Below are positions 10,930-46,082 of a stretch of 64,000 bases of DNA, in pieces. Numbering within the stretch: position 1 is the stretch's first letter; every line of letters starts with the position of its first letter. The notes beneath the pieces are model-generated. The model saw only the letters and a list, made by a program, of their open reading frames with translations. It was not told where the DNA came from and ran no database searches. Both the position numbers and the translations under genes were made by a program. Source of the DNA: Acidobacteriota bacterium (GTDB taxonomy: Bacteria; Acidobacteriota; Terriglobia; 20CM-2-55-15); the NCBI GenBank assembly GCA_022821145.1, contig JAJEEE010000037.1, forward strand, positions 1-64,000, read 5' to 3'.

Positions 10930-12879
10930 GTGAGTAGAGGAACGACGATCCCCGCGGCCGCACTGGGCGCCGCGGCAATGTTGCTGAGCCACGTCGCCGC
11001 GGCTCAGACCAACGTGACCAGTGTTCAACCGGGCTTCGCCGTCGATTTCGCCGGAGAGTGGGTGGTCCGCAACAACGAGGACCCCGGCCAACCGCCGCTG
11101 GGCGACTACCTGGGGATCCCGTTCAACGAGGCCGGACGGCTCCGCGCGGAGGCCTCGGCCGAATCGATGTGGGGGACCGTCGAATACCAGTGCCGGCCGC
11201 ACTCGGCGCCGCACCAGTGGCGCGGCGTGGGCGGCGCCCGGATCATGAAGGAGATCGATCCGCAGACGCGCACGCTGACGGCGTACCACGTCGAGTTCTG
11301 GCGTTCGATGCGGCGGCCGATCTACCTGGACGGCCGGGGGCATCCACCGGCCTGGGCGCCCCACTCCTGGACCGGATTCTCGACCGGGGAGTGGGTCGGC
11401 AACACGCTCAAGGTCACGACCACGCACCTGAAGGACGGCTACCTGAAGCGCAGCGGGCCGCAGACCAGCGACATGTACACGATGACCGAGTACATCACGC
11501 GGCACGGCGAGTTCCTGACCATCTTCATGATCGTCGACGATCCGATCTATCTGGACGAACCCTTCGTTCAGTCGACGACGTACCGGCTGGATCCCGAGGC
11601 GCAGTTGCGGCTGGAGCCGTGCACGACGTCCTTCGCCGAGAACGGCGGCGTCGACCGGCACTGGGTGCCGCATTATCTGCCGGGACAGAACACGTTCCTG
11701 ACCGAGTGGCTCGAGGAGGAAAACTGGATTCCCGAGGAGGCGGCCCGCGGCGGACCGGACACGATCTATCCCGAGTACCGGCGTGCGCTCGCCGGGGATG
11801 CGGCCCCGGAGACCGTGCCTATGTCCGACTCGGCGATTTCCGCCGATGAGAAGGTGCGCGCCCAGAGCCCCCGGGACGGACAGGTCCACGTCCTGCCCGT
11901 GCAGGGCAACGTCTACATGCTCGTCGTCGACGGCGCGAACATCGCCGTGTCGGTCGGACCCGACGGCGCGCTCCTCGTCAATACCGGCCCCGAGCACATG
12001 GCCGGCCAGGTCCTGGAGACGGTCCGCGAGCTGACGGCCTCCGCGGTCGCAGCCCGGCCCAACAACTGCCTGGGCCTGAATTGCGCGAGCAATCCGGCCG
12101 GATGGTCGAGCCCGTACATCAACACGGTCATCAGCTCGACGCCGCCGCCCCGGCCGATTCGCTACATCTTCAACACGAACGCTTCGTCGGACCTGACCGG
12201 CGGAAACCTGACGCTCGCCGAGGCCGGCTACTATCCCCGCGGCGGGGGCAATGCCGGCGCCGTGGCCGGCATCGGCCAGAACGCGATGATCGTCGCCCAC
12301 GAGAACGTGCTGTTCATGCTGAGCGCACCCACGGGCGGCGAGGCGCCGACGCCGGAAGGGGCCTGGCCGACCGACACGTTCTTCGACGAGTTCTACAAGC
12401 TCAGCCAGTACTTCAACGGCGAGGGCGTCGTCGCCTACTCGCAGCCGGCGGCGACCACGGACGGGGACAGCATCGTCTTCTTCCGCCGCTCGGAGGTGAT
12501 ACACGCGGGCGACATCTACTCGACCGTCGCGTATCCCCGCATCGATCTCGAGAACGGCGGCAGCATCCAGGGCGTCATCGATGGGCTGAATCGAATTCTG
12601 GACCTGGCCGTACCGGAGAACCGGGCGCAAGGCGGCACCTGGGTGATCCCCAGCCATGGGCGGTTGTCGGATACGGCCGACGTCGCCTCGTACCGGAACA
12701 TGGTGACGATGGTCCGCGACCGCGTGCGGGCGTTGATCGGCGACGGGCTGACTCTGGAACAGGTCCGGGCCGCGCGGCCGACCGCGGATTTCGACGGGCG
12801 TTACGGCGCCGTCGACGGCGACTGGACCACCGACATGTTCGTGGAGGCCGTCTACGGCAGTCTCGCCGAATCACGATAG
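10930..12879 (+). CDS. Fusion of A-domain and MBL-like domain, secreted
   Basis: 649 residues; GTG start with GGGAG upstream; signal peptide to about residue 25. Residues about 35-290 are the A domain, found as separate proteins at 31426 and 36528 (landmarks EYQCRPH, FSTGEWVGNTLKVTTTHLK, SGPQTSDMY, TIYPEYRR). Residues about 318-645 are the MBL-like domain, found as separate proteins at 30286 and 35391 (DGALLVNTGPEHM, RYIFNTNASSDLTGGN, FNGEGVVAY, HAGDIYSTVAYPRIDLENGG). The metal motif HxHxDH is replaced by NASSDL (417-422), keeping only the Asp; a His remains at the C-terminal site (SHG, 575-577). Enzymatic activity is doubtful. It heads an operon with DUF6152 and X genes. Confidence 0.78.
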   Translation: MSRGTTIPAAALGAAAMLLSHVAAAQTNVTSVQPGFAVDFAGEWVVRNNEDPGQPPLGDYLGIPFNEAGRLRAEASAESMWGTVEYQCRPHSAPHQWRGVGGARIMKEIDPQTRTLTAYHVEFWRSMRRPIYLDGRGHPPAWAPHSWTGFSTGEWVGNTLKVTTTHLKDGYLKRSGPQTSDMYTMTEYITRHGEFLTIFMIVDDPIYLDEPFVQSTTYRLDPEAQLRLEPCTTSFAENGGVDRHWVPHYLPGQNTFLTEWLEEENWIPEEAARGGPDTIYPEYRRALAGDAAPETVPMSDSAISADEKVRAQSPRDGQVHVLPVQGNVYMLVVDGANIAVSVGPDGALLVNTGPEHMAGQVLETVRELTASAVAARPNNCLGLNCASNPAGWSSPYINTVISSTPPPRPIRYIFNTNASSDLTGGNLTLAEAGYYPRGGGNAGAVAGIGQNAMIVAHENVLFMLSAPTGGEAPTPEGAWPTDTFFDEFYKLSQYFNGEGVVAYSQPAATTDGDSIVFFRRSEVIHAGDIYSTVAYPRIDLENGGSIQGVIDGLNRILDLAVPENRAQGGTWVIPSHGRLSDTADVASYRNMVTMVRDRVRALIGDGLTLEQVRAARPTADFDGRYGAVDGDWTTDMFVEAVYGSLAESR

Positions 12880-12892
12880 GAGACGGAAAGGG

Positions 12893-13291
12893 ATGAAACA
12901 CACAACACTGCTGTCGCTTGCGGCCGCCATCCTGCTCTCGGGCACGGCGGCCACCGCGCACCATTCCTTCGGGGCGACCTACAACAGCAACGAGCAGATC
13001 ACGCTTGAAGGCCGCCTGGTGCAGTTCGCATTCCGCAACCCGCATTCCTTCGTCCACGTCGAGGCGCCGGACAAGGACGGCGTCGTTCGGCGGTGGGCCG
13101 TGGAGTGGAGCGGCGCCGGCGCGCTCGCCAGCCAGGGCGTCGAGCGGACCACGCTCCGCGCGGGGGATGCGATCGTCGTCACGGGCCGTCCGTCCCGCAC
13201 GCCCGGCGAGTACCGGGTCCAGATGCTGACGGTGACCCGTCCGCTCGACGGCTTCGAGTGGGGCCGGCGCCCCGGCGAGGTGATCGACTAG
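12893..13291 (+). CDS. DUF6152-like secreted protein (cassette 1)
   Basis: 132 residues. Signal peptide MKHTTLLSLAAAILLSGTAA followed by TA then HHSFGATY. The likely cleavage site (ATA before HH) would leave His-His as the mature N-terminus. Further conserved blocks are EGRLVQFAFRNPHSFVHV and LRAGDAIVVTGRPSR, which read like a small OB-type barrel. The family is of unknown function. It sits 13 bases after the fusion gene, with a GGAGACGG ribosome site, and its stop overlaps the next start (TAGTG). Confidence 0.75.
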   Translation: MKHTTLLSLAAAILLSGTAATAHHSFGATYNSNEQITLEGRLVQFAFRNPHSFVHVEAPDKDGVVRRWAVEWSGAGALASQGVERTTLRAGDAIVVTGRPSRTPGEYRVQMLTVTRPLDGFEWGRRPGEVID

Positions 13292-14019
13292 TGTCGTACC
13301 GAACGATCGGACTCCTCTGCCTGCTGGCCGTTCCCGGCGTGGTCCTGGCGCAGCGGGGCGGCCCTCCGCTTCCCGTCGGCGCGGCGGAAGACCGGGCGGT
13401 CGTCGACCTGACGGGTTACTGGGTCTCGGCCGTCACCGAGGACTGGAAGTTCCGCATGGTGACGCCCAACCCGGGAGCGTACCGCGGCGTCCCCTTGAAC
13501 GGCGAGGGCCAGCGCGTCGCCGACGCATGGGACCCGGACGCCGACGAAGCCGCCGGCGAAGCCTGCCGGGCATACGCCGCGCCGGCCATCATGCGCGTCC
13601 CGGGCCGGTTGCGCGTTTCCTGGGCGGACGGGGACACGCTGCGCATCGAAACCGACGCCGGGACCCAGACGCGGCTGTTCCGCTTCGACGACGTGGGCGC
13701 GGGGCGTGGCGAGCGAAGCTGGCAGGGACACTCCTCGGCGGAGTGGCAGCCTTCGGATGCGGGCGGCGGCACCTTGAGAGTCGTCACGACCAACCTGCGG
13801 GCGGGTTACGTTCGAAAGAACGGCGTGCCCTACAGCGAGAACGCCGTGCTGACCGAGTACTACGACCTGCACGGCGCGCCGAACGGCGACGAGTGGCTCG
13901 TCATCACGACGGTCCTGGACGATGCGGCATACTTCAACGGGCCGTTCCTCACGAGCACGAACTTCAAGCGGATTCCCGACGACTCGGGATGGGATCCGAC
14001 TCCCTGCTCGGTCCGCTAA
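13291..14019 (+). CDS. X-family secreted protein (cassette 1)
   Basis: 242 residues from a GTG that overlaps the stop of the DUF6152 gene. A signal peptide (TIGLLCLLAVPGVVLAQ) is followed by a domain I label X: DLTGYWVSAVTEDWKFRM, VPGRLRVSWADGDTLRIETD, TQTRLFRFDD, GYVRKNGVPYSENAVLTEY and a C-terminal FKRIPDDSGWDPTPC. Paralogs at 29513 and 34219 keep all these blocks. The RKNGVPYS block resembles RRNGxPxSD in the A domain, so A and X are probably distant relatives. Function unknown; a strand-rich lipocalin-like fold is a guess. Confidence 0.75.
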   Translation: MSYRTIGLLCLLAVPGVVLAQRGGPPLPVGAAEDRAVVDLTGYWVSAVTEDWKFRMVTPNPGAYRGVPLNGEGQRVADAWDPDADEAAGEACRAYAAPAIMRVPGRLRVSWADGDTLRIETDAGTQTRLFRFDDVGAGRGERSWQGHSSAEWQPSDAGGGTLRVVTTNLRAGYVRKNGVPYSENAVLTEYYDLHGAPNGDEWLVITTVLDDAAYFNGPFLTSTNFKRIPDDSGWDPTPCSVR

Positions 14020-14405
14020 CGGATCTGGAAACCCAGGCGCGGGTTGAACTCCCGGCCGTCGCTGAGCCGCGTCGCGGTGAGCCAGGCGCCGGCCGGACGA
14101 CCGTCCACCATCGGGTGCCCGGTTATGGTGATCTCGGTACCGGGCGAGAAGTCGCTCCTTCGGATCCCGCCCCGCATGAGCGTGCTGGGCCCTTCGGCCT
14201 CGAAACCCCACGTGGTGACCGTGCCGTCCTCGTTGGTCACGTCCACCAGCAGCCACGAATGCGGGTTCGTGTACTGAAACTCCTGGACCACGCCGGTGAC
14301 GGTGATCTCCCGCGAATCGTCGAACATGGCCGTCGAATGGTGCGCCAGGACCGGCAGTGACGCCACGGCCACGGCCGCCGCAACGCCCGTCAGAATCGTT
14401 CTCAT
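14016..14405 (-). CDS. DUF6152-like secreted protein
   Basis: 129 residues. Signal peptide ending PVLA followed by HHSTAMFDD, again giving a predicted His-His mature N-terminus. The core keeps GVVQEFQYTNPHSWLLV, EGPSTLMRGGIRRSDF and PGTEITITGHP. It is the last gene of a four-gene minus-strand operon (15953, 15402, 14418, 14016), 12 bases after the lipoprotein, with a GGAGATGGGGAG leader. Its stop overlaps the convergent X gene by 4 bases. Function unknown. Confidence 0.75.
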   Translation of the reverse strand: MRTILTGVAAAVAVASLPVLAHHSTAMFDDSREITVTGVVQEFQYTNPHSWLLVDVTNEDGTVTTWGFEAEGPSTLMRGGIRRSDFSPGTEITITGHPMVDGRPAGAWLTATRLSDGREFNPRLGFQIR

Positions 14406-14417
14406 CTCCCCATCTCC

Positions 14418-15374
14418 TTACTGGACGTCGTCTTCGTCGGTGAACGTGAAGTCCGCAAAATCCGATCCGCCCTCTTCGGTCTCCAGCACGACGTTGTTGG
14501 CGTTCTCGCCGCAGTGCCAGTACCGGATCCGCAGGCTTCGGTCGTCGTTGGTCAGCTTCCGGAAGACCTGCCGCGAGTACCACGGCTCGAGGAAGGCCTC
14601 GGGATCGTACAACCAGACGTCGGCGACGATGGTGTCGTCCGCGGTCTTCCGCCAGCGCTCGACGACCTCGACCCGGTCGCTGACCCGCGGCTGGATCCGC
14701 TGCAGCATGCCCGCGCGCATCTGGGCGGTGTGGACGACGAGCGTGTCATCGTCCCAGAACCCGATCGAATCGCCCGCCCAGAGCGGATAGGCGTCCGCCT
14801 CGCTCGGATGGTCCCGACCGTCGGTGTAGACGCGGCGGATCTCGTTCATCATCTCGTTGACCAGCCACGCCTGATCGGGCCGGAGGATGAACTCCTTCAG
14901 GAACGGCTCCACGATCCATCGGGGCATTCCGGCCGGGTTGCACGCGCTCAGGGGATCGTAGTCGATGCCCTGGAGAAAGTTGTCGAGCCGCGCCGTCAAC
15001 TCCTGTTCGTATTCCGGCGTGAGCCGGGCCGGGGGCAGGGACTCCATCGAGGTCTGGTCCGGATCCCAGAAGAACGGGCTCGCCTCGCGCGTCCAAATCC
15101 CCGTCCAGTCGGGAAGCGTCTCCCAGGCGGGCTCCGTACCGCCGCCGACCTCACCCCGGAAGTGATCGTACAGACCGCGCGCGGTCCCATGCTCCACGCC
15201 GAGGTCGATCATTTCCTGTTTGTCGGCGGCCGTGGCGGCGGGCGCCTCGCCATCGGTCCCGGCGCCGTCCGGCGCGGGGCCTTCGGGCGGCGAGCCTTCA
15301 GGCGTCGAGCACGCGGCCATGACGCCCGCGGCAAGCACGGCCGCGAATGGCGCGGAAAGTCGGTTCCTCGTCAT
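14418..15374 (-). CDS. Lipoprotein of the GFWDG-motif family
   Basis: About 318 residues from the ATG at 15374 (AGGGAG upstream). A lipobox (VMAAC) near residue 21 predicts lipid anchoring, followed by a long Pro/Gly/Glu linker. The folded part has LPDWTGIW, RLTPEYEQEL, CNPAGMPRW, GDSIGFWDDDTLVVHTAQM and RVEVVERWRK. The GFWDDDTLVVHT block ties it to the families at 6435 and 15953 and to the A domain. An in-frame GTG at 15401 is an alternative start. Role unknown; expected to be attached to the envelope. Confidence 0.7.
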   Translation of the reverse strand: MTRNRLSAPFAAVLAAGVMAACSTPEGSPPEGPAPDGAGTDGEAPAATAADKQEMIDLGVEHGTARGLYDHFRGEVGGGTEPAWETLPDWTGIWTREASPFFWDPDQTSMESLPPARLTPEYEQELTARLDNFLQGIDYDPLSACNPAGMPRWIVEPFLKEFILRPDQAWLVNEMMNEIRRVYTDGRDHPSEADAYPLWAGDSIGFWDDDTLVVHTAQMRAGMLQRIQPRVSDRVEVVERWRKTADDTIVADVWLYDPEAFLEPWYSRQVFRKLTNDDRSLRIRYWHCGENANNVVLETEEGGSDFADFTFTDEDDVQ

Positions 15375-15401
15375 CACGTGTGTCTCCCTTGGCGTGTTCA
15401 C

Positions 15402-15917
15402 CTAGTTCGAGGCCACCGGCCCGTCGGCGGGAATGACGCCTTCCCCGAACGGCGTGTTGCCCTCGACCGAGTCGCAGTGCCGGCCCGGCGCGGGCACCGC
15501 GTCCATCGGACACCGGAACAGGCCCGAGTCCCCGCGGTCTCCCGCCGGACGGCCGTCCCGCCGGGGGTGGATGGCCATGCTGAAGACGGTTCCCTGCGGA
15601 AACTCTTCCTGGGTGATGCCTTCCCGGCGCGCCTGCGCGGCACTTTCCATCTGCAACACCCAGACGTCGGGTTCGCCGTCCTCGCGCCGCAGGAGCGCGT
15701 CCCGTTCTTCGTTCAAGGGCACCATGTGCATCTCGAAGTGGGCGGCGTTGGGAACGATCCGGACCATGACGCCGGTGAAGACCCGGTACACGGTGCCGTC
15801 GTACATGGCGTAGGAGTGATGGGCGTCCGTCGACGGCACGGCCAGAGCCGCCGCGACGACGGCGACGGCCAGAACCGCGAGGCCAGACGCCGATGCATTG
15901 AGATTCCGGATACGCAT
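15402..15917 (-). CDS. Divergent DUF6152-like secreted protein
   Basis: 171 residues from an ATG with GGGAGGACTCGCC upstream. The signal peptide ends VPSTDA followed by HHSYAMYDG, preserving the His-His start seen in the other DUF6152-like proteins. The core is more divergent: the NPHS block is replaced by PNAAHFEMHMVP, and the C-terminus is extended with two Cys (FRCPMDAVPAPGRHC). It is second in its operon, between the 441-residue family protein and the lipoprotein. Function unknown. Confidence 0.65.
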   Translation of the reverse strand: MRIRNLNASASGLAVLAVAVVAAALAVPSTDAHHSYAMYDGTVYRVFTGVMVRIVPNAAHFEMHMVPLNEERDALLRREDGEPDVWVLQMESAAQARREGITQEEFPQGTVFSMAIHPRRDGRPAGDRGDSGLFRCPMDAVPAPGRHCDSVEGNTPFGEGVIPADGPVASN

Positions 15918-15952
15918 GGCGAGTCCTCCCTTGTGTCCAAGAATGCGGGCGC

Positions 15953-17263
15953 TCACTGAAAGCCCAGGTCGAGCTCGCGCTCGGGGCGCTCCATGTCCTG
16001 CTCGAAGTGCTCTTCCCAGATCCGGGCCCACGGGCGGTTGAGCAGGTCGGGAACACGGTACTCGATCAGCTCGCCCGGCGCCACCTGGGTGGCCACGCCG
16101 CCGATCGGGTACAGCCGGCTGGCGCACTCGAAACGCCCCAGCCGGTCGGCCGTGGCGAGCGATTCCTGGTAGGGCCGGTGAACCAGGATCCGGACCGGCT
16201 CGGCGAGCGCCTCGGCGTCATAGAGCACGGCTTCCCAATCGATCCCCGCCAGCTCGCCGCCGGCGTCGTACACGGGCGTCAGGATCTCGATCGTCTCCAG
16301 CGCGTTGCTCCATTCCCAACTGGAGTGCTGGTTCCAGCCCTGAATGTTCGACGTCATCGTGATCAGCGCGTCCCCGTCCCAGAACCCGATCGTGTCGCCG
16401 TACCACTGCGAGACGGCCGGACCGACCGGAAACTCCCGGCCGAGATGCACGACGCGCGTCATGTTGGCGCTCATCATCAGGACGACCTCGGGGGTGACGA
16501 CGATGCGGTTCGCGCGGGTCCCGCCGGTCGCCCACTGCCGCATGAAGCCCTCGGGCCAGCAATAGGACGCCGACCAGGCGTGCGCGGCGGTGACGCCCTC
16601 GTGGTAGAGCTGCTGCACCAGCCGTTGCTGGTACTCGGGCGTCAGCAGGGACAGGATGGTCGGGGTCTGGTTCGCGCGCATGTAGTTCCACACCAGCCGA
16701 CGCTCCGGGTTGTACTGTCCGTAGGTCCCGTCCCACTTCGGCATGGTTTCGTAGGTATGCCGCGTCGGACCGCCGCGCGACTCCGCGTCGGCCAACAGCG
16801 CGCGGTAGTGGTCGCCCGCGGTCTCGAACGGATACGGGCTGACGATGGCGTCGCGGGGCCAGTCCGCGCCGCAGTCGCCCCAACGGGCCGACACGGGCGG
16901 ATCGCTCCCGATGCGCGGGTCGGTCGTACCCTGGCCGGGGCCCCCGCTCCGCATGTCGGCCATCTGCCGGGGCGAGTTGCACCGCCAGTACCGCGGGTCC
17001 GTCCAGAGGTCGCGGTCCCGGTAGAAGTCCGTGCTCGTGAAGACGTCCAGCGGCAACGGCTCGACGCCGTCGGGCGGCCGCGCGTTCCATTCCGGGCCTT
17101 CGCCGTGACTGGGAACGTCGGGCGGTGGATGAACGGCGGTGTAAGGCGCTCCTCGCAGGCCCGCGACTTGCGGCGGTTCGAGCTGCGCCCATGCCGCCGG
17201 CGCCGCCAACGCGCATGCCAGGAACGGCGCCCAAGCGGTGATGAGCGTCCTGTGAGCAGTCAT
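15953..17263 (-). CDS. Secreted protein of the GFWDG-motif family
   Basis: About 436 residues; ATG at 17263 with GGAGG eight bases upstream; signal peptide ending AAWAQ. It is a clear paralog of the gene at 6435: [57 protein letters not shown] and [17 protein letters not shown] occur in the same order. It heads the operon that continues with DUF6152-like, lipoprotein and DUF6152-like genes. Function unknown. The [20 protein letters not shown] block is also shared and may be part of a binding site. Confidence 0.7.
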
Positions 17264-17368
17264 CTCCTGTACCTCCATGTCGAACGGCCTGAGGCCGCCT
17301 GGATCACCCTGTTCGCCGCGTATTACATCACAGGCGTCGGGCTCCCGGAAAGAAGTTCGGCGCGCCGC

Positions 17369-17944
17369 CTACTCGGGCTCCGCGTCGTCGAGCGACGGCG
17401 GCGTGAACAGGTCCTCGAGGTCGATCCCCGGGTCCAGTTGCGCCTCCGGTTCCGACGTCGTGTAGCCGATCCACCGGCCCATGAAAATGATCGACACCCA
17501 CAGCGCGAGCGACAGGACGGCGACCGTCCTGGCGGCCCGCGGCCCGGCGCGATCCCGGTCCCAACCCGCGACCCTCCGTCCGGCGGTCAGCTCGAACGCC
17601 AGCACGTTGATTCCGGCCAGCAGCAAGAGCACCATCTTGGTCCGGAAGAACACGTTGTCGAAATAGATGCTGGCGCTCGTGACGAACATCAGGACGCCGG
17701 TCACCGCGGCCAACGCCATCGCGGCCCAACTCCATCGCATGATGTCCGCCCGGATGCGCATGAAGGGCCGCCGGACGGACGCGACCCCGAGCAGGCGGAG
17801 GTCGATGACGATGCTCGTGCCGAACACGAGGGCCAATCCCAGGACATGGAAGGACTCGATCAGCGGGAACAGGTAGAGCGAATCCCGAATGCCGGTCGCG
17901 ACGCGGGTCGATTCCAGCCAGGTCAGAACGTCAGCGAAATCCAT
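17369..17944 (-). CDS. DUF6644-like membrane protein
   Basis: 191 residues with four or five membrane helices: ESFHVLGLALVFGTSIVIDL, SWAAMALAAVTGVLMFVTSA, MVLLLLAGINVLAFEL and TVAVLSLALWVSIIFMGRWI. His32 in SFHVLG and a C-terminal acidic tail are notable. The pattern resembles DUF6644 membrane proteins of unknown function. It lies 12 bases downstream of a second member, so the pair may form a heterodimer. The family name is from memory and moderately sure. Confidence 0.6.
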   Translation of the reverse strand: MDFADVLTWLESTRVATGIRDSLYLFPLIESFHVLGLALVFGTSIVIDLRLLGVASVRRPFMRIRADIMRWSWAAMALAAVTGVLMFVTSASIYFDNVFFRTKMVLLLLAGINVLAFELTAGRRVAGWDRDRAGPRAARTVAVLSLALWVSIIFMGRWIGYTTSEPEAQLDPGIDLEDLFTPPSLDDAEPE

Positions 17945-17956
17945 GACCCGGCTCCG

Positions 17957-18475
17957 TCAGGCCAGCGGCGACAGGCCGCCCCACACGTAGTCGTAGGCGA
18001 TCAGGCGGCCCAGGATCACGATCGCCGCCCAGACCAGCAACGTGAGGATGGCCAGCGTGCGCACCGCGGGCCGGTCGGCCAGCGTCCGCTCCCATCGCGT
18101 CTCGTCCTTCTTCAACGAGGCCTGGAACGCGAAAGCGGTCACGGCGCCCACGGCGACCAACGCCATCTTGACCCGGAAGGAGAAGCTCATCAGCTCCCGC
18201 ACGGGCTCTCCGATGACCATCAGGACGCCCGTCACGAGGAGAACGAGCAGCGCCCAGGACATCCACGGACCGAACCGCTCGCGCGTTTCGCCCAGCGTCT
18301 GGTCCCGTCCGGCCCAGCCCAGCAGGCGCAGGTCGATGGCCGCGACCGACGTCAGCACGATACCGATGGCGGCGATATGAATCGACTGCAGCGTCGGAAT
18401 GACCCAGGCGTATTGGGTCTGGATCCACAGGCTCAACGACGTTCGGGCGAGCCACTCGGCGAACTGCTCGATCAC
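17957..18475 (-). CDS. DUF6644-like membrane protein
   Basis: 172 residues, GTG start. Helices QSIHIAAIGIVLTSVAAIDL, SWALLVLLVTGVLMVIG, MALVAVGAVTAFAFQ and LAILTLLVWAAIVILGRLIAYD align with the downstream paralog, including the conserved (S/E)xHxxxIG...IDLRLLG stretch. The conserved His in a membrane helix could bind heme or metal, but that is a guess. It is 28 bases downstream of gentisate dioxygenase on the same strand and may be co-transcribed with it. Confidence 0.6.
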   Translation of the reverse strand: MIEQFAEWLARTSLSLWIQTQYAWVIPTLQSIHIAAIGIVLTSVAAIDLRLLGWAGRDQTLGETRERFGPWMSWALLVLLVTGVLMVIGEPVRELMSFSFRVKMALVAVGAVTAFAFQASLKKDETRWERTLADRPAVRTLAILTLLVWAAIVILGRLIAYDYVWGGLSPLA

Positions 18476-18503
18476 TTCGGATGTCCCTGGCGAGCCGGAA
18501 GCG

Positions 18504-19580
18504 TCAGGTCGACGTCGTCAGCTTCTCTTCCCGCCACAACCCCAATGCCTTCTGGGCGGCCCGGTCCGAGAAGCTGAACAGGACGGCCTGCTCATCGGCG
18601 CGGTGCACGGCCTGAGTCCAGGAAGGAACGACAAAGATGTCGTTCGGCCCCCACGCCAGCAGCGCGCCGCCGACGCGCGTCTCGCCGCGGCCTTCGGTGA
18701 CGCAGAACACCGTGGAGTCGGTCGACCGATAGGGCGCGCTCTCGAATTTCGCGGGAAGCAGTTGGAGGAACGTCGCGATGGTCGGCATCGGATAGCCGCC
18801 GGTCACCGGGTTGACATACTGCATCTTGACGCCGTGCCAGGCGTCGACGGGCGCCATCCGGTACAACCGCTCCAGGGACTCCCGGCTCCGTGAATACGGA
18901 TAGCTGAACACCGGCGATGTCTTGCCGGTCGGCGTGTATTCGAGCGGCGCCAGGTTCTCGCCGTAACGCAACTGCGATTCGCCTTCGCCGCGCGTCACGG
19001 GGTATTCCTCCTCCGGATACAGCGCCGCGAAGCTGGAGTCGAAGTGGTTGACCAGGGGCACGTCCAGACCGTCCATCCATATGACGGGACCGTCGCCGGG
19101 ATTCCCGTGGTCGTGGAACGTCCATGACGGCGTGATGATGAAGTCGCCCGGCGACATCGTCGTCTTCTCGCCGTCGACCGAGGTATAGCCCCCGCTGCTC
19201 TCGAGCACGAAACGCAGCGCGGAGGCGACGTGGCGGTGACACCGGGCGATCTCTCCCGGACGGACAAGCTGCAGCCCGGCGTACATGCTGTGCGTGATCC
19301 GCGAGTCGCCGGGATAACCGGGATTCTCCAGGATGAGTACGCGGCGTTCGGCCTCCTCCGAAGTCAGCAGGTCTCCGGCTTCCACTAGCAGCGGCCGCAT
19401 TTCCGAGTACCGCCACAACACGGGTTGGCATCGCGAACGGGGCTCGGGGGGGATGATGTCGCCCATCACCTCCCATAGAGGCGCCGTGTTGCGGGCGGCC
19501 ATCCGCTCGTAGAACGCCTTCCGCTCCGGCGTAGTCTCGGGCCTTCGGAAGATGGAAGGGTCCGTCAACTCTCGCGCCAT
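18504..19580 (-). CDS. Gentisate 1,2-dioxygenase-like bicupin
   Basis: 358 residues from the ATG at 19580. Two cupin domains are visible. The N-terminal one has CHRHVASALRFVLE and FIITPSWTFHDHGN, whose three His (CHRHxx...HDHG) bind Fe(II) in gentisate and 1-hydroxy-2-naphthoate dioxygenases. The C-terminal one has GRGETRVGG and DIFVVPSWTQAVHRA. The family cleaves the gentisate ring to maleylpyruvate with O2. It is cytoplasmic. Possible next steps (FAH-family hydrolase, maleate isomerase) are 18 kb away. A -10-like TATACT lies at 19608-19613 on this strand. Confidence 0.83.
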   Translation of the reverse strand: MARELTDPSIFRRPETTPERKAFYERMAARNTAPLWEVMGDIIPPEPRSRCQPVLWRYSEMRPLLVEAGDLLTSEEAERRVLILENPGYPGDSRITHSMYAGLQLVRPGEIARCHRHVASALRFVLESSGGYTSVDGEKTTMSPGDFIITPSWTFHDHGNPGDGPVIWMDGLDVPLVNHFDSSFAALYPEEEYPVTRGEGESQLRYGENLAPLEYTPTGKTSPVFSYPYSRSRESLERLYRMAPVDAWHGVKMQYVNPVTGGYPMPTIATFLQLLPAKFESAPYRSTDSTVFCVTEGRGETRVGGALLAWGPNDIFVVPSWTQAVHRADEQAVLFSFSDRAAQKALGLWREEKLTTST

Positions 19581-19692
19581 GTGTATCACCCCGCGCCGGC
19601 TTGCAGTAGTATAACGAATGGGCCCGTCCCGCGCGGCGAACTTCGCAACCGGGCTCGCTTCGCGTGCGCCGGACGGCGCCAAGGAGTCCACC

Positions 19693-20757
19693 ATGCGGCT
19701 CGGAATTCCGCTGGCGTCGCTGATCCTGCTCTCGGTCCAGCTCGACGGCGCGGCCGCCGTTCAGTTCCAGGGACGCGGCGCCGTCCGCGGTGACGCGCGC
19801 GGCGCCATCATCGGCCGGGTCGTCAGCGACTCGCCCCAACCCGTGCCCCACCCCATCGAGGTTCGCCTGGAAGGCGTCGCGCCCGATGTGCGGGCCCGAA
19901 CCTACACGGACGGCCTGGGGAACTTCACGTTCGACGAGTCCCAGGCCGCCACGGCGAGTTTCATCGTCGTCGAGGTGGAGGGATTTCGGCCGGTGCGGCA
20001 ACGCATAGACGCCACGCCGGCCGTCGTGCGCGGGCAGATGGTCACGACCGTCTTCCTGGAGCGGCTGGCGCCCGACGTCTCGCCGGCCTCGGACGACACC
20101 GACGTCGTGGACTTGAGTCAGCTGCGAGCCGACATCCCGCGCCAGGCCGTCGAAGCTTTCGAGCGGGCGGCCGATGCGTCCCGACAAGGCAACCACGAAG
20201 AAGCGGCCGAGCGTCTGGAGCTGGCCGTGGAGTTGTCTCCGGAGTACTACGACGCACAATACGCGCTCGGTTTCGAGTACCTTCAGTTGGGGCGCGTCGA
20301 AGACGCGGAGAGCCGGTTTCGGACCGCGTCCGAGCTCGACCCCAACGCCGCCGATCCGCTCGTCAACCTGGGCATGCTGCATCTCCGCGAGAACGACGCC
20401 CTGACGCTGGCGCGGGACGCCGAAACGGCGGCGAAACGGCTCGCCGACGCGGTCCGCGTGCTCGACGAAGCCGTGGCGCGCGAGCCCGCCTCCGCCTCGG
20501 CGCGCTACCTCCAGGGCACGGCGCTCTACCGGGCCGGGGAGAACCGGCGCGCGCTGGAAACGCTCGAGCGCGCGCTGGATCTGACGCCCTCCGTGCCGCG
20601 GGTTCGCATCATGCTCTACAACGTCTACGTCGCCGAGCGCGAGTTCGGACGGGCGCTCGAGCAGTTGACCCTGTACCTGGACGAGAACCCGGACAGCGCG
20701 GACCGCGAATCCGTCGAGCGAATGAAGACGGAACTGGAGCAACTCCTTCCACGCTGA
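19693..20757 (+). CDS. Secreted carboxypeptidase-regulatory/TPR protein
   Basis: 354 residues; ATG at 19693 with AAGGAGTCCACC upstream. After a signal peptide, a carboxypeptidase-regulatory-like strand domain (IIGRVVSDSPQPVPHPIEV ... GNFTFDESQ, about residues 35-110) is followed by tandem TPR helices (about 150-345: YYDAQYALGFEYLQLGRVED, ADPLVNLGMLHLRENDAL, ASARYLQGTALYRAGENRRA, VPRVRIMLYNVYVAEREFGR). It is probably a periplasmic scaffold. A paralog with the same order begins at 63376. The next TPR gene is 26 bases downstream. Confidence 0.78.
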   Translation: MRLGIPLASLILLSVQLDGAAAVQFQGRGAVRGDARGAIIGRVVSDSPQPVPHPIEVRLEGVAPDVRARTYTDGLGNFTFDESQAATASFIVVEVEGFRPVRQRIDATPAVVRGQMVTTVFLERLAPDVSPASDDTDVVDLSQLRADIPRQAVEAFERAADASRQGNHEEAAERLELAVELSPEYYDAQYALGFEYLQLGRVEDAESRFRTASELDPNAADPLVNLGMLHLRENDALTLARDAETAAKRLADAVRVLDEAVAREPASASARYLQGTALYRAGENRRALETLERALDLTPSVPRVRIMLYNVYVAEREFGRALEQLTLYLDENPDSADRESVERMKTELEQLLPR

Positions 20758-20783: not shown

Positions 20784-21974
20784 ATGAATATCCCGAAACG
20801 GACCGTGCCCGCCTCTTGGTTGGCCGTCTGCATCGCGGTGACGCCGCCCCTGGCCGCCCGCGCGCAGGACGACGACTTTCGCCTGGAACCCGTAGCCGCC
20901 TCGGCCGCCGAGTTCGAGGCAATGGACGCCCTGGAGCTCGAGCAGAACCCCGTCACGCAGTTGACGTTGGCCACGGCGTTTCTGGCGTCCTATCCGGCGA
21001 GCGAGTTCACGCACCTCGTCCATCGCGTGCGCATCCAGGCTTACGACGCGCTCGGGAACGCCGGCGCGGTGATCACTGCGGCCGAAGCGGCCCTGGAATC
21101 CGAGACCGCGTTCGTCGAATCGCGCCGCGCGACGTTGGCCGAACGTGGGGAAGCGGAGGCGCCCGTCCTGGAGCTCGAGTTCGCGAACTCGCGGACGTTC
21201 TACTATCGGGCGTTGATGGACGCGCACAATCAGCAGGCGGAGAACGAGGCCGTCATCCGTTACGCGACTCTGGGGTTGGAGAGCAACGCGGAAGCCCGGG
21301 AACGGTTCAGCGCGATGACCGACGACAACTCGGACGATTTCGACCCGACGATCGAGAACCACCGCGCGGTCGAGCTGTTTCTGACTCAGACGATCATGGC
21401 CGCGTACCAGAACCTCAACGACGCCGAGCAGACCATCGTCTACGCGGAGCGCGCGCTCGAGTTGAATCCCGACGATCTCGCGACGCTGCTGACCCTTTCC
21501 GGCGTCATGGCCGAGCGTCCTCCCGAAGAGGGCGACGCGCGCGCGGAGCACCTGGACCGGGCCGAGGAGCACGCCGAGAACGCCATCGACATGCTGGACC
21601 GGTTCCTGGACGGTCCGGCCGGGGCCGGCATCGGCGACGCACAGGCCGCCGCGCTGCGTTCCAGCGTTCACTCCACGCTCGGCCTGATCTACCTCCACCA
21701 GGAGGAGTTCGGCGACGCGCGCGATGAGTACGAAACCGCCCTCGAGGCCGCGCCCGACGATCCGATCGCCTGGTTCAGGTTGGGCTTCGCCTACGCGCAG
21801 GACGACGAGGCGGACGACGCCATGGAGGCGCTGGCGCGGTCGGTGTCGCTCGGGGGCGTCACCGAATCGGAGGCCCGGGACCTGTTGGAGCGGATCTACG
21901 AGGCGGAGAACGGATCGCTCGACCTGCTGGACGCGTTCATCGCGGAAGAGGCTGGCCGCATCGGGAACGAGTGA
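20784..21974 (+). CDS. Secreted TPR-repeat protein
   Basis: 396 residues. A signal peptide ends near LAARAQ; the rest is helical, with TPR units such as ENEAVIRYATLGLESNAEAR, AEQTIVYAERALELNPDDLA, GDARDEYETALEAAPDDP and WFRLGFAYAQDDEADDAME. TPRs mediate protein-protein contacts. It is expected to be periplasmic and co-transcribed with the upstream carboxypeptidase-regulatory/TPR gene. A strong hairpin terminator follows 38 bases after the stop. The partner is unknown. Confidence 0.78.
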   Translation: MNIPKRTVPASWLAVCIAVTPPLAARAQDDDFRLEPVAASAAEFEAMDALELEQNPVTQLTLATAFLASYPASEFTHLVHRVRIQAYDALGNAGAVITAAEAALESETAFVESRRATLAERGEAEAPVLELEFANSRTFYYRALMDAHNQQAENEAVIRYATLGLESNAEARERFSAMTDDNSDDFDPTIENHRAVELFLTQTIMAAYQNLNDAEQTIVYAERALELNPDDLATLLTLSGVMAERPPEEGDARAEHLDRAEEHAENAIDMLDRFLDGPAGAGIGDAQAAALRSSVHSTLGLIYLHQEEFGDARDEYETALEAAPDDPIAWFRLGFAYAQDDEADDAMEALARSVSLGGVTESEARDLLERIYEAENGSLDLLDAFIAEEAGRIGNE

Positions 21975-22012
21975 GCCGCCTCGGAGGGCGTCGAACTCTT
22001 CCGAAGAACCAC

Positions 22013-22041
22013 GAAGGGCGGGGGTCGAGCCCCCGCCCTTC
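22013..22041. terminator. Bidirectional hairpin terminator
   Basis: A perfect 12-bp stem (GAAGGGCGGGGG and its complement) with a 5-base loop TCGAG, between the convergent TPR and TonB-receptor genes. The tail on the plus side is TACTTTC, so the U tract is weak, but the stem is very stable and well placed to stop both transcripts. Confidence 0.75.
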
Positions 22042-22066
22042 TACTTTCATCCGATGGATTCCTCGA

Positions 22067-30268: not shown

Positions 30269-30285
30269 GGGCGTGGCCTCCTCCC

Positions 30286-33745: not shown

Positions 33746-34222
33746 CTATCGCCGCTCGTACACCACGGTCGACGCGACTTCCCGGCCGTCGGCCAGCCGC
33801 TCCCGCGTGAAGGTCGTCAACGTGTCCCCGTCCGGCGAGACCGTCGTCCGCGCCCGGGCGGCGGGCGCGCCGTCCACCTTGATGACGACCTCGTAGGTCT
33901 GCTCGTCGACCCATCGGTAGGCGTTCGTCAGGACGTAGTCGACCCCCTGGACGGCGTAGTCCCGGCCGTCGAACCGGCCGGTCCATTCCATGCGGACCAC
34001 GCCGCCGCGCTCGCCGACCAGCTCGTAACGGACCCGGACGCCGTCGCCGTGGGGCTCGATCCAGCAGGTCGTTCGCTTGTATTGCGAAGGGTTCGATTCG
34101 GACGCCCGGGTGTTCAACTCCCAGGTCCCGAACAGGATCTCGGCGTCCTGCGCTGCCAGGGCGGCGGCGCATGCGAGAACGCCGGCCACCCCGCCGAGCG
34201 TCCGGACTGCGAAACGGGTCAA
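33746..34222 (-). CDS. Small secreted lipocalin-like protein
   Basis: 158 residues from a TTG start that overlaps the stop of the X gene (TTGA), with no good ribosome site, so translation is probably coupled. The signal peptide TRFAVRTLGGVAGVLACAAALAAQ is convincing. The mature part starts FGTWELNTRAS and continues as strands (YAVQGVDYVLTNAYRWVD, YEVVIKVDGAPAAR, TTVSPDGDTLTTFTRERL), a barrel-like pattern. It is the last gene of cassette 3 and converges on the DoxX-like gene with a one-base gap. Function unknown. Confidence 0.65.
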   Translation of the reverse strand: MTRFAVRTLGGVAGVLACAAALAAQDAEILFGTWELNTRASESNPSQYKRTTCWIEPHGDGVRVRYELVGERGGVVRMEWTGRFDGRDYAVQGVDYVLTNAYRWVDEQTYEVVIKVDGAPAARARTTVSPDGDTLTTFTRERLADGREVASTVVYERR

Positions 34223-34998: not shown

Positions 34999-35386
34999 AG
35001 TCCTCGCCCTGCTGGCCCCATCCGTATCCGTCTTCGGTGCGCAGGAGCGTCCGCATGCGGATCCGGTGGTCGGCGGGGTTGCGGCCCGGATTGCCGGTGA
35101 TGACCACGACGTCGCCGGGCCGGAGCGAGGAACGGCTCACGCCCTGACGCCCCAACTGGCCGGCGCCGCCCCACTCCACGCCCCAACGGTGCACCTCGCC
35201 GTCCTCGTCGGGCGCCATCACGTGAACCCAGGAGTGGGGGTTGCGGAACATGAACTGGACGATGCGGCCCTCGATCTCGACCAGCGCGTCTTCGTCGTAG
35301 GTCGCCGTGAAGGAATGGTGCGCGAAGGCGGTCGCCGCGAACATCGCGACCGCCGCGAGCACGGGTACACACACACTTCGTTTCAT
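34991..35386 (-). CDS. DUF6152-like secreted protein (cassette 3)
   Basis: 131 residues from the ATG at 35386 (AGGGAG upstream). Signal peptide ending TAFA directly before HHSFTATYDED, giving a predicted His-His mature N-terminus. It is very close to the cassette 1 member: EGRIVQFMFRNPHSWVHVM, WGVEWGGAGQLGRQGV and LRPGDVVVITGNPGRNP. It lies 4 bases after the MBL-like gene and overlaps the X gene, so tight co-expression is expected. Function unknown. Confidence 0.78.
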   Translation of the reverse strand: MKRSVCVPVLAAVAMFAATAFAHHSFTATYDEDALVEIEGRIVQFMFRNPHSWVHVMAPDEDGEVHRWGVEWGGAGQLGRQGVSRSSLRPGDVVVITGNPGRNPADHRIRMRTLLRTEDGYGWGQQGEDFD

Positions 35387-35390
35387 GACG

Positions 35391-36527
35391 TCATCTCCCT
35401 GGGCCCCCGCTGTAGGGCGGGAGGCCTCGGTATTCCTCCGGAGCCGGCGTCTCGGTGAGGTTCCGATACACCGCCTCCACGAACATCTCGGTGGTCCATG
35501 GACCGTCCTCGGCGCCGAACCGCGGATCGTAGCCCAGCGTCGGACGCGCCGCCTGCACTTCATCCAACGACATCCCGTCGTCGATCATGATCTGCATGTG
35601 GTCGCGAATGATCGTCAGCATGTCCCGGTAATAACCCAGGTCGGCGGAGTCCGAAATCCGGCCGCTGCCGGGAACGATCAGGGTGCCGCCCTCGGTCCGG
35701 AACGAGGGGATGGCCAGTTCCAGCATGTAGTTCAGGGCGTCGATGACGCCGTTGATGTGCCCGCCGCGCTCCAGGTCGATGACCGGATACGTCGCGGCCG
35801 AATACGTGTCGCCGGCCACGATCACGTCCGATCGGGTGAAGTGGACGATGCTGTCGCCGTCGGTATGCGCCCCCGGCATGTGAATCAGGCGAATGCCCTC
35901 GCCGTTGAAGAAATGGCTGAGCTTGTAGTACTCGCCGTAGTACGTATCCGTCGGCAATGCACGGAACGGCGCCTCGGCGTCCACCATGTGGAAGAGCGTG
36001 TTCTCGTGGGCGAGGATCGCGGCGCCTTCGTCGGCGTCCTGAATGCTGCCCGACACGTTCCCGCCGGCGAACGTGACGCCGGCGTTGGCCAAGGTCTCGT
36101 TGCCGCCGGTGTGATCCGGGTGATAGTGGGTGTTCAGGATGTACCGGATCGGCTTCGGCGGCGGCCGCGTGTAGATGGGCGTGGTCTGGAGCGCCTCGGC
36201 GCCCCCGCGAAGCCCCGGCGGCGGCAGGCTGCCGAAGTCGAGCATGCGCTGAAGCTCCTGGATCTCGATCAGGAGCGCCTCGGCCATCGACTCGGCGCCC
36301 GAATCCACCAGCAGCACGCCGTCGGGGCCCACGGAGGCGACGACGTTGCCGCCCGCGCCCGCGAAGAGCCAGATGTTGCCCTGAACGTGGACGGCCTCGA
36401 CGCCGCCCTGCCGGAGAACCGGCGGTTCGCCTCGACCCGCGGCCGCAAACACGGTTCCCGACGCCGTCAATGCCGCCAGTCCGAGAATCGACCTCGCAAC
36501 GCCGCGCATGTCCGTCACGCGGCGCAT
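35391..36527 (-). CDS. MBL-fold secreted hydrolase-like protein (cassette 3)
   Basis: 378 residues from the ATG at 36527, which touches the stop of the A-domain gene and has GGAG eight bases upstream. Signal peptide to about residue 29. It is the only one of the three cassette MBL proteins with the metal motif intact: HYHPDH (134-139), His221 (GAHTDGD) and Asp240 (VAGD). The last expected His is replaced (VPGSGR, 286-290). Further shared blocks are GVLLVDSGAESM and PVIDLERGGHINGVIDAL. It could be a hydrolase with one incomplete metal site; substrate unknown. Confidence 0.8.
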   Translation of the reverse strand: MRRVTDMRGVARSILGLAALTASGTVFAAAGRGEPPVLRQGGVEAVHVQGNIWLFAGAGGNVVASVGPDGVLLVDSGAESMAEALLIEIQELQRMLDFGSLPPPGLRGGAEALQTTPIYTRPPPKPIRYILNTHYHPDHTGGNETLANAGVTFAGGNVSGSIQDADEGAAILAHENTLFHMVDAEAPFRALPTDTYYGEYYKLSHFFNGEGIRLIHMPGAHTDGDSIVHFTRSDVIVAGDTYSAATYPVIDLERGGHINGVIDALNYMLELAIPSFRTEGGTLIVPGSGRISDSADLGYYRDMLTIIRDHMQIMIDDGMSLDEVQAARPTLGYDPRFGAEDGPWTTEMFVEAVYRNLTETPAPEEYRGLPPYSGGPGR

Positions 36528-37457
36528 CTACCGCGCTCCCGACACGGGCGCGTTCTGTTGCGCCTCGAACGTCGGCGTGGCTTCGTCCAACCGGCGCGCT
36601 TCCCACCCGTTCTCGCGGATCATGGCGCGGAACTCGGGATACATCGAGATCGCGCCCTGGCGGGCCGCCTCGGCCGGGATTCCGAGGTGCTCCTCGTACT
36701 CCCCGAGGTGGGGATTCTCGCCCGGGAACCAGCTCGGCACGTAGCCCCGGGGCCGGTCCACCTCGGTGACGACCGTGCACGGATACGGCGGCACCTGGTC
36801 GTGAGGCCGCCGTATGTACTCGGTGGTGCGAATCAGCGGTTCCGTGAGGTAGTCGGGATCGTAGACGACCTTGGTCCAGGACAGGTAGTCCTCGTTGCCC
36901 ACCGACCGCAGGATCAGGTATTCGGTCATCGTGATGCGGTCGCTCTGCGGCGGGCCGTTCCGCCGGATGTAGTCTTCCTTCACATGCGTCGTCGTGACCT
37001 TCAGGACGTCGCCGACCCATTCCCCGGTGGAAAAGCCGGCCCAGGTGTGGGGCGCGTGCTCGGACGGATGCGAGCGGCCGTCCATCCAGATCGGGTTGTC
37101 GATCGACCGCAGCCACTCGGTGTGGAAGGCGACGGTCTCGCGCGACACCGGATCCACTTCCTTCCAGATCTTCAGGGCCGACGGGCCGCGCGTGATATAG
37201 GCGCCCGAATGCGGCCGGCACTGCCATTCCGGCAGCGACTGGATCGACGCGTCCCATGTGTCCGACCGCCGGTAACCCGCCTCGTTGAGCGGCAGTCCGC
37301 CGGTGTCGCCGTTGTACGGGTTGTGGAAGTTGTCCTCGCTGCGGACCACGCGCCATTCCCCGGACAGGTCCGTCTGGGCGTAAGCCGCCCCGCCGAGGCA
37401 TGCCGCGGCCGTCAGGAGGAGGGAAACCTGAATGCCGGCTCGAGTGCGGTTCGTCAT
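36528..37457 (-). CDS. A-domain secreted protein (cassette 3)
   Basis: 309 residues; ATG with GGAGGG about nine bases upstream; signal peptide ending AAYAQ. Same blocks as in the fusion at 10930 and in 31426: EWQCRPHSGAYITRGPSA, AFHTEWLRSIDNPIWMDGR, FSTGEWVGDVLKVTTTHVK, DYIRRNGPPQSDRITMTEY and SMYPEFRAMI. It leads the complete cassette (A, MBL, DUF6152, X, small lipocalin-like). Function unknown. The strongly conserved Arg-Asn-Gly and Ser-Asp positions suggest a binding pocket rather than a structural role only. Confidence 0.75.
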   Translation of the reverse strand: MTNRTRAGIQVSLLLTAAACLGGAAYAQTDLSGEWRVVRSEDNFHNPYNGDTGGLPLNEAGYRRSDTWDASIQSLPEWQCRPHSGAYITRGPSALKIWKEVDPVSRETVAFHTEWLRSIDNPIWMDGRSHPSEHAPHTWAGFSTGEWVGDVLKVTTTHVKEDYIRRNGPPQSDRITMTEYLILRSVGNEDYLSWTKVVYDPDYLTEPLIRTTEYIRRPHDQVPPYPCTVVTEVDRPRGYVPSWFPGENPHLGEYEEHLGIPAEAARQGAISMYPEFRAMIRENGWEARRLDEATPTFEAQQNAPVSGAR

Positions 37458-44906: not shown

Positions 44907-45695
44907 ATGGGCGAATCCAGCAATTCCGGACAGCGACCGCGGGCCTGCGCGATCGTACTGGTCGCCGTGCTGGGCGGCGTCTTCGCCTCGGCCCAGACGG
45001 CGACCGCGCCTGTCCCGGATCTCGCGGGAATCTGGTCGCCGGGCGACAACTGCACGCCGAACGGCGTGACCTGTCCGTTCGTCTTCCGCGAGTTGCCGTT
45101 GAAGGCGCGGGCGCTGGGCTTCATGGCCGCGTGGGACGAAACGGCGGGACCGAAGTACGACTGCGTCCAGGCCACGTCGCCGTCCCTGGTGGCGGATCCC
45201 TACGCGTTCGCGATCGAGCAGCGGGAAGACCGGGTCGTCTTCACCTACGAAAAGGACGACATCGTGAGAACCGTCTGGCTCGAGGGCCACGGGCACCCCG
45301 AGCCGCCCGTCTACGAGTTCACGGTCCAGGGGTATTCGCGCGGCCGGTACGAAGACGGGAGCCTCGTCGTCGAAACGTCCGCGTTCACGTTCGATCCTCA
45401 CGGCCTGGACGACATGGCCAACGTGCCCTCCTCCACCCGGAAGCGCGTCGTCGAGACGTACCGGCGGGAGGGCGATGGCCTCCGCGCGGACGTGGTCACC
45501 GAGGATCCGGTCTTTCTGAACGAAGCCATCGCGTTCACCCGCCTTTGGGAACCGCAGGAAGCGCCGCTGATCCTGCCGTACGCGTGCCTGCCCGAGCTGG
45601 CCAGCCAGCCCGTGCAGTTCGTGCCGTCCAAGTACGCGGACCCGGACATGATCCGGCTCCCGGAGGTCTTTCCCCCCGATGACGACGCGCAATAG
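44907..45695 (+). CDS. A/X-like secreted protein (reduced cassette)
   Basis: 262 residues with a signal peptide ending FASAQ. It opens DLAGIWSPGDNCTPNG, includes KYDCVQATSP, then GYSRGRYEDGSLVVETSAF, a clear member of the DTLVVETT motif family, and ends with a LPEVFPPDDD tail. It has no RNGxP block. Three Cys near residues 50, 60 and 90 may form a disulfide. It is followed 13 bases later by a DUF6152-like gene, repeating the pairing seen in cassettes 1 and 3. The ATG at 44907 is the only start that includes the signal peptide. Confidence 0.68.
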   Translation: MGESSNSGQRPRACAIVLVAVLGGVFASAQTATAPVPDLAGIWSPGDNCTPNGVTCPFVFRELPLKARALGFMAAWDETAGPKYDCVQATSPSLVADPYAFAIEQREDRVVFTYEKDDIVRTVWLEGHGHPEPPVYEFTVQGYSRGRYEDGSLVVETSAFTFDPHGLDDMANVPSSTRKRVVETYRREGDGLRADVVTEDPVFLNEAIAFTRLWEPQEAPLILPYACLPELASQPVQFVPSKYADPDMIRLPEVFPPDDDAQ

Positions 45696-45707
45696 AGGAA
45701 CGCCGAC

Positions 45708-46082
45708 ATGCGTTTGCAGACCTGGACGATGATCGCGGCGGCCATCGTCATGGCCGCCGTCCCGGCCGCCGGGCACCATGCGCAGTCGGCGGCATTCCAT
45801 ATGGATCGATACGTCGAGATCGAAGGCGTCGTCAGCAACTTCGTCTTCAGGAACCCGCATCCCGTCCTGTACGTCGAGGTGACGGGCGACGACGGAGAGA
45901 TCCAGGTCTGGCAGATCGAATTCGCCCCGGCCACGGTCCTGGCCAAGCGCGGTTGGACGCGGGAGACTTTCGTCGAAGGCGAGGTCATCAGCGCCCGCGG
46001 CCACCCGTCCAAGGTGGAAGGGACGCACGGGATGGCGGCGGGCGCGGACATCACGCGCGCGGCGGGCGAAGTGGTGCGGTAG
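45708..46082 (+). CDS. DUF6152-like secreted protein
   Basis: 124 residues; GAGGAAC ribosome site. Signal peptide ending PAAG followed by HHAQSAAFHMD; cleavage there would again expose His-His. The core keeps EGVVSNFVFRNPHPVLYVEV, FAPATVLAKRGWTRETF and EGEVISARGHPSKVEG. It is the second gene of the reduced cassette and converges on the cytochrome-lectin gene with a four-base gap. Function unknown. Confidence 0.73.
   Translation: MRLQTWTMIAAAIVMAAVPAAGHHAQSAAFHMDRYVEIEGVVSNFVFRNPHPVLYVEVTGDDGEIQVWQIEFAPATVLAKRGWTRETFVEGEVISARGHPSKVEGTHGMAAGADITRAAGEVVR

Follow-up and report, generated by a model that had tools for sequence, protein, structure and literature searches.

How are we to understand a set of exported proteins that recurs, in nearly the same gene order, along a single stretch of bacterial DNA? 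The stretch considered here, which we call the window, comprises the 64,000 nucleotides at positions 1 to 64,000 of contig JAJEEE010000037.1 (forward strand, assembly GCA_022821145.1) of an Acidobacteriota bacterium, the genome of which (4.18 Mb, 89 contigs) is 99% complete. A preliminary description of the window had noted a protein termed A, a metallo-beta-lactamase-like (MBL-like) protein, sometimes a DUF6152 protein, and a protein termed X, following one another three times, and had proposed that they make a working unit outside the cytoplasm. This proposal is supported by the conservation of neighbours, by A-MBL and DUF6152-A/X fusions and by trees that mirror each other, and the unit itself has to be redrawn. 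DUF6152, a single family that we call A/X, and the membrane protein DUF6644 make a co-inherited gene system, the first two members of which carry export signals; A-MBL-(DUF6152)-X is a cassette of that system with an added MBL-fold protein, often fused to A. A wider unit, and one more generally found, consists of DUF6152 with A/X and a tandem of DUF6644 genes; the MBL cassette seems to derive from it. The cassettes of the window, found at the places, on the strands and in the order first reported, and the reduced pair that accompanies them, also present as described, are as follows.

10930-12879, forward strand: cassette 1, A and MBL fused in a 649-residue secreted protein (A about 10930-11815, MBL about 11815-12879; AlphaFold model and Foldseek)
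12893-13291, forward strand: cassette 1, DUF6152 (PF19649), predicted mature N-terminus HHSF (Pfam E 2.9e-22)
13291-14019, forward strand: cassette 1, X, its start overlapping the DUF6152 stop by 1 nucleotide (TAGTG)
31426-32277, reverse strand: cassette 2, A, with a possible alternative upstream GTG start at 32307
30286-31392, reverse strand: cassette 2, MBL-like protein (Pfam Lactamase_B E 2e-5), ligands degenerate, S-A-D-R..T..D..R
29513-30289, reverse strand: cassette 2, X, in a 4-nucleotide ATGA overlap with MBL
36528-37457, reverse strand: cassette 3, A
35391-36527, reverse strand: cassette 3, MBL-like protein (Pfam Lactamase_B E 2e-14), HxHxDH intact (NTHYHPDH), last ligand His replaced by Ser
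34991-35386, reverse strand: cassette 3, DUF6152 (Pfam 88.8 bits)
34219-34998, reverse strand: cassette 3, X, in an 8-nucleotide overlap with DUF6152
44907-45695, forward strand: reduced pair, A/X member, found by a hidden Markov model built from cassette A alone
45708-46082, forward strand: reduced pair, DUF6152 (Pfam E 3.9e-22)

Cassettes 1 and 3 have the four expected members and cassette 2 is without DUF6152; A and MBL are separate genes in cassettes 2 and 3, and share one open reading frame (10930-12879) in cassette 1. The tight coupling that had been remarked upon is real, X overlapping the upstream stop by 1, 4 and 8 nucleotides in cassettes 1, 2 and 3, respectively, with a gap of 0 nucleotides between A and MBL of cassette 3. 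So is the common export, as far as signal peptides can be judged by eye or from the -3/-1 pattern: every cassette product displays, by eye, a signal-peptide-like N-terminus. Identity to the first-listed cassette member is 42-55% for A, 45-53% for MBL and 46-53% for X, and the three cassettes are, to judge from these sequences, old and divergent paralogues. This divergence rules out a recent tandem duplication as their source, and cassette 1 is nearest to a cassette on another contig, C70. An ARAGORN call of a tRNA-Pro at 31103-31184 (reverse strand), within the coding sequence of the MBL of cassette 2, is most likely a false positive.

The four families that had been distinguished reduce to three. 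MBL and DUF6152 stand, and A proves homologous to X (hhalign probability 99.7%, E 1e-25; BLASTP E 1e-17), as both do to many other proteins of their own genome. Neither A nor X has a Pfam or NCBIfam match, and the family has no confident sequence similarity to any solved PDB chain. Of 291 sequences of the family, 98% have one and 100% the other of two conserved cysteines, the residues common to all being mostly structural (Gly, Pro, Trp, the two Cys and one Asp), and the best Foldseek matches of the modelled barrel are CRABP2, CRBP and FABP (probability 1.00, E 2.5e-4 to 1e-3, TMt 0.5-0.6). We take A/X as one disulfide-bearing secreted family, with a predicted lipocalin/FABP-like barrel. Cassette A has in addition the near-invariant polar residues D126, R128, H130, H137, H158 and K160, and X the conserved residues Q127, R129, Q145, W112 and W152. 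A search of PLSDB for plasmid spread returned no match for X. Elsewhere in the window, a 477-residue open reading frame (6435-7868, reverse strand), without a Pfam match, matches the A/X profile in its central part and adjoins a stretch resembling pyrroloquinoline-quinone (PQQ) dehydrogenases.

The extent of the association is best appreciated in the genome of origin, which holds 88 DUF6152 genes, five DUF6644 genes, seven A-MBL-(DUF6152)-X cassettes and, on a scoring of 150 of 167 candidates, at least 125 A/X hits. An A/X gene on the same strand lies within 1 kb of 73 of the 88 DUF6152 genes, when 3.8 would be expected and the maximum reached in 2000 random placements was 12. The copy numbers of DUF6152 and A/X are the outcome of an extreme lineage-specific expansion: most relatives of the same family have 36-91 DUF6152 genes, and in the majority of the remaining families of the class the gene is missing. 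Further afield, an MBL alignment run against 84,980 species genomes yielded 80 loci, and the adjacency of A/X was not built into this sample because the loci were picked on their MBL sequence alone. The immediate neighbours of the 63 MBLs with enough flank included A in 60 cases, X in 58, both in 55 and DUF6152 in 20, and the commonest orders (M standing for MBL and D for DUF6152) were AMDX (16), AMX (14), MXA (7) and XAM (5). It had been asked whether the families are neighbours in other genomes beyond chance and not merely in close strains of one organism, and both points are settled in the affirmative: the loci, mostly from Acidobacteriota (the adjacency is found in Vicinamibacteria, Bryobacterales, Terriglobia, gp5 and gp6), come also from Gammaproteobacteria and from one metagenome-assembled genome (MAG) labelled Acidimicrobiia, perhaps misbinned. 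The distribution is patchy, strong matches to the cassette-type MBL occurring in only about 5 of 297 Acidobacteriota genomes. Single-reading-frame fusions are recurrent, about 30 of the A-MBL type and 14 of the DUF6152-A/X type, and the A, MBL and X trees of 78 cassettes mirror each other (r 0.84, 0.66 and 0.69; maximum after shuffling 0.17), a correlation that partly reflects shared organism history, though several cassettes share one genome. We infer that the cassette proteins would form a physical complex. A DUF6152-A/X fusion, in a Proteobacteria MAG (L113:12201-13193), contains a short unresolved stretch, and very similar fusions are present in L117 and L119.

DUF6644 is tied to the system by its inheritance. 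In a survey of the 297 Acidobacteriota genomes, DUF6152 was found in 39 and DUF6644, above its cut-off, in 39, and the two sets are identical. Lineage alone would not account for this match, because the carriers are distributed over ten families and the genera g12 and g23 contain both carriers and non-carriers. A/X was found in 38 genomes, 37 of them common to the 39 DUF6152 carriers and one other; among 41 nearer relatives, it was present in 15 of the 15 genomes with DUF6152 and in 1 of the 26 without (Fisher 2.5e-10). DUF6644 genes were in tandem at all 30 loci, 17 of which had DUF6152 within short flanks (about 1.5 kb), often in divergent orientation. On plasmids of cultured Pseudomonadota, DUF6152-DUF6644 two-gene units stand alone in Comamonas and in Azospirillum, beside TonB and siderophore genes; DUF6152 and A/X accompany a TonB receptor on a Croceibacterium plasmid, and DUF6152, A/X and DUF6644 are together on a Novosphingobium plasmid. 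The MBL cassette may also have a membrane partner of its own, as some cassettes are closely followed by the gene of a longer membrane protein (L069:12389-13369, L085, L089, L102), the C-terminal half of which resembles DUF6644.

The window has its own example of the broader unit, a set absent from the preliminary description, in which A/X-like, DUF6152, A/X-like and DUF6152 genes (17278-14016, reverse strand) follow two DUF6644 genes, themselves preceded by a gentisate-dioxygenase-like cupin.

14016-14405, reverse strand: DUF6152 (Pfam E 2.6e-32)
14418-15401, reverse strand: A/X-like protein
15402-15917, reverse strand: divergent DUF6152 (Pfam E 7.6e-10)
15953-17278, reverse strand: long A/X-like protein
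17369-17944, reverse strand: DUF6644 membrane protein, first of the tandem pair (Pfam E 1.4e-13)
17957-18475, reverse strand: DUF6644 membrane protein, second of the pair (Pfam DUF6644 E 6.4e-11; CopD E 5e-5, below cut-off)

From the cupin onwards the genes of 14016-19694 (reverse strand) are co-directional with short gaps, an arrangement partly repeated at locus L062, and the run is likely to be one operon. The second DUF6644 protein reaches 24.1 bits against the CopD model (PF05425), the gathering cut-off of which is 32.1.

What, then, could the core protein do? The DUF6152 proteins of the window all exceed the Pfam gathering cut-off of 27 bits (79 for cassette 1, 88.8 for cassette 3, 78.6 for the reduced pair, 111 and 39 for the additional set). 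Exactly three residues are fully invariant in 154 of 154 sequences, and all three are histidines: His1 and His2, placed immediately after the predicted signal peptide, and that of an NPH motif. Position -1, just ahead of HH, is occupied by A, G, S or T in 147 of 149 sequences and position -3 mostly by A, V or G, as would suit signal peptidase I, and the cleavage pattern predicts a mature N-terminus AxA^HH. A histidine at the predicted mature N-terminus and a second conserved internal histidine, that of NPH, are what a histidine brace calls for. A natural DUF6152-A/X fusion of the same genome, modelled from its mature HH (pLDDT 86.5, pTM 0.70; structure models were made for naturally fused pairs, this one and the A-MBL protein of cassette 1), gives DUF6152 as a small five-stranded domain resembling the OB-folds of the SSB type (Foldseek SSB match, TMt 0.61). 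DUF6152 had no confident PDB relative by sequence, and a search for viral homologues gave weak OB-fold matches only. DUF6152 is probably a secreted metal protein, and the metal probably copper.

The genes that surround the cassettes add a hint about what is handled. FAA-hydrolase and Amdase (maleate-isomerase family) genes adjoin cassette 3, and an FAA hydrolase lies with a gentisate-dioxygenase-like cupin and/or an Amdase beside the cassettes of L042, L044, L045, L050 and L064; at L062 the cassette has a cupin and DUF6644 next to it. Other cassettes have tannase, HpcH/HpaI aldolase, amidohydrolase or cresol-dehydrogenase-like genes as neighbours, the gentisate and cresol names being our readings of the sequences. 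In the window's subfamily the substrate is probably aromatic or phenolic, to judge from such neighbours.

A scenario can be proposed on this basis. Cleavage by signal peptidase at AxA^HH would free the amino terminus and the His1/His2 pair of DUF6152, an exported OB-fold metalloprotein; the amino terminus, His1/His2 and the NPH histidine, which is in the first hairpin, would then make up a site, akin to a histidine brace, for a transition metal, probably copper. A/X, a disulfide-stabilised barrel of the calycin type, would hold a small hydrophobic or aromatic ligand near that site, metal site and barrel being tied together in the DUF6152-A/X fusions. The tandem CopD-like pair of DUF6644 proteins would supply metal, or electrons, to many DUF6152 paralogues, and the two families, in growing to 88 DUF6152 and about 125 A/X genes, would have diversified ligand specificity in a bacterium that degrades aromatic compounds and esters. 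In the cassettes, A and X would be two specialised barrels beside an MBL domain acting on the same ligand, and in most copies this domain would perhaps only bind the ligand shared with A and X. This combination of metal protein, ligand barrel and dependence on DUF6644, to which the cassettes add an MBL partner, seems to us the best explanation overall, and we hold it tentatively, stopping just short of calling it probable. In a bolder form, in our view distinctly unlikely, DUF6152-A/X would be secreted copper oxidoreductases of a new class. The histidine brace would sit on the OB-fold, and the substrate would be chosen by the calycin barrel, a distinct protein diversified into about 100 versions within a single genome; one CopD-like hub in the membrane would serve them all, and A-MBL-X would be a specialised branch for aromatic substrates. 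Several observations weigh against the proposed scenario: confidence in the calycin assignment of A/X is moderate; the first ten residues of the DUF6152 model have a mean pLDDT of 75; DUF6152 is optional in the MBL cassette, being absent from about two thirds (present in 20 of 63); the gentisate-type context is found at only about 6 of the 80 loci, and the cassettes concerned are for the most part closely related to those of the window; and the neighbours on Pseudomonadota plasmids point to metal uptake, not to catabolism.

This last point leads to the chief rival, somewhat unlikely and yet a serious contender, namely metal acquisition. Beyond the inner membrane, DUF6152 would capture a metal, be it copper or another, for transfer to DUF6644, acting as a CopD-like importer; A/X would bind metallophores in the way of siderocalins, TonB-type receptors would import the complex, and the catabolic neighbours would be incidental. 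CopC, with its N-terminal histidine, and CopD provide an obvious analogue, in keeping with the weak CopD match of DUF6644; DUF6152 adjoins TonB receptors and siderophore transporters in cultured bacteria, and a TonB-type outer-membrane protein is encoded at 29 of the 80 cassette loci. Precedent exists in secreted families with an N-terminal histidine, of which the characterised ones considered here bind metal without notable catalysis (PMC12537917). Metal supply alone would hardly explain 88 DUF6152 and about 125 A/X genes for only five DUF6644, and an MBL-fold partner and ring-cleavage genes would be unexpected. The paralogue explosion and the catabolic context speak for ligand processing, the gene neighbourhood in cultured bacteria for metal uptake.

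It may also be asked whether the MBL protein is the catalyst, a secreted lactonase or a hydrolase of aryl esters or sulphate esters to which A/X would present the substrate, with DUF6152 as its metallochaperone. The fold is confirmed (Foldseek E 4e-11 to 8d2z, with many MBLs, including alkylsulfatases and BcII, among the matches; Pfam Lactamase_B for cassettes 2 and 3), the model of the A-MBL protein of cassette 1 (pLDDT 86, pTM 0.88) suggests a fixed two-domain arrangement, A is fused to MBL in some 30 cases, and MBL defines every cassette when DUF6152 belongs only to some. The site itself tells against this view. Only 12 of 78 cassettes retain HxHxDH unaltered, the state of the motif changing about ten times over the tree, and the full dinuclear set (HxHxDH with the distal His, Asp and His) is present in 11 of 102 MBL sequences; the commonest pattern, S-D-D-H-H-D-H (22 of 102), keeps D, H, H, D and H and has lost the first two histidines. 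No cassette of the window has the active set, HxHxDH being lost in cassettes 1 (N-S-D-L..T..D..H) and 2 and only the last His in cassette 3. Moreover, the majority of A/X and DUF6152 genes lie away from any MBL. Hydrolysis as the core function is rather improbable. No link was visible between the presence of DUF6152 and the state of the MBL ligands (full site, 4 with and 7 without; altered site, 24 with and 43 without). Outside any cassette, a secreted MBL-type protein with HYHWDH intact lies at about 25900-26761 (forward strand), in frame with an overlong open reading frame, 21971-26761.

Less likely still, A/X might themselves be enzymes with a calycin-like active site, as in phenolic acid decarboxylase, DUF6152 and MBL being accessories: the near-invariant polar residues of A, and those, different, of X, could line the barrel, and aromatic-acid genes are nearby, but A, X and most other members of the family do not have these residues in common, and those kept family-wide are mostly structural. 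That expanded secreted families should cluster by chance, with no joint function, is scarcely credible, however numerous both are in their own genome, and is rejected in the face of the 73 of 88 adjacencies (3.8 expected), fusions in several lineages, mirrored trees and identical genome sets. Anti-phage defence was likewise rejected, PADLOC giving no match for any cassette protein.

Among the papers searched, none dealt with DUF6152 or DUF6644. Two families with no assigned function and a large family outside Pfam are now joined in a system that can be put to the test, supported by exact co-occurrence and by fusions and offering a specific prediction of a metal site, and the exported proteins are likely to be a new toolkit for dealing with metals or aromatic compounds outside the cell. 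Should DUF6152 indeed be a histidine-brace protein, its expansion to 88 copies in a single genome would be striking, and the system would be relevant to the ways in which uncultured Acidobacteriota deal with metals, or attack aromatic matter, in their surroundings. The MBL domain, so often kept without its metal ligands, would offer a clean case of repurposing.

We may finally ask what this system resembles. Signal strapping has brought to light metalloproteins with an N-terminal histidine, DUF4198, DUF6702, Ang-1 and Ang-2, setting a precedent for metal binding by secreted families of this kind; DUF6152 is not named in that paper (PMC12537917). Like DUF6152, these families have a signal peptide followed by a conserved histidine, and a second one downstream (His18 in DUF4198, His28/His32 in DUF6702, about position 28 in DUF6152), yet their N-terminal histidine is conserved at 79% and 65% (PMC12537917), when HH is fully conserved in DUF6152. 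The likeness is one of signature, of the kind by which new metalloproteins with an N-terminal histidine were sought. With the calycin superfamily (CRABP/FABP, lipocalins) A/X would have in common an antiparallel beta-barrel, as predicted, and it differs in being bacterial, exported, endowed with a conserved cysteine pair and paired with DUF6152. For the MBL part, the nearest curated models are TIGR04559 and TIGR04558, the SoxH-related zinc metallohydrolases of a quinoprotein relay system (E 5e-14 for cassette 2, 5e-16 for cassette 3), with scores of 27-59 bits against a curated cut-off of 280; unlike them, the cassette MBLs usually have altered ligands and are fused to or flanked by A/X. The CopC-CopD pair shares with our system an exported protein with a mature N-terminal histidine and further histidines, here DUF6152, genetically tied to a multi-pass CopD-like membrane protein, here DUF6644, in a tandem or divergent arrangement. 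CopC is a beta-sandwich, whereas DUF6152 is predicted to be an OB-fold, and DUF6644 matches CopD weakly, below cut-off; nothing in CopC-CopD corresponds to the A/X barrel, to the MBL partner or to the expansion to 88 copies.

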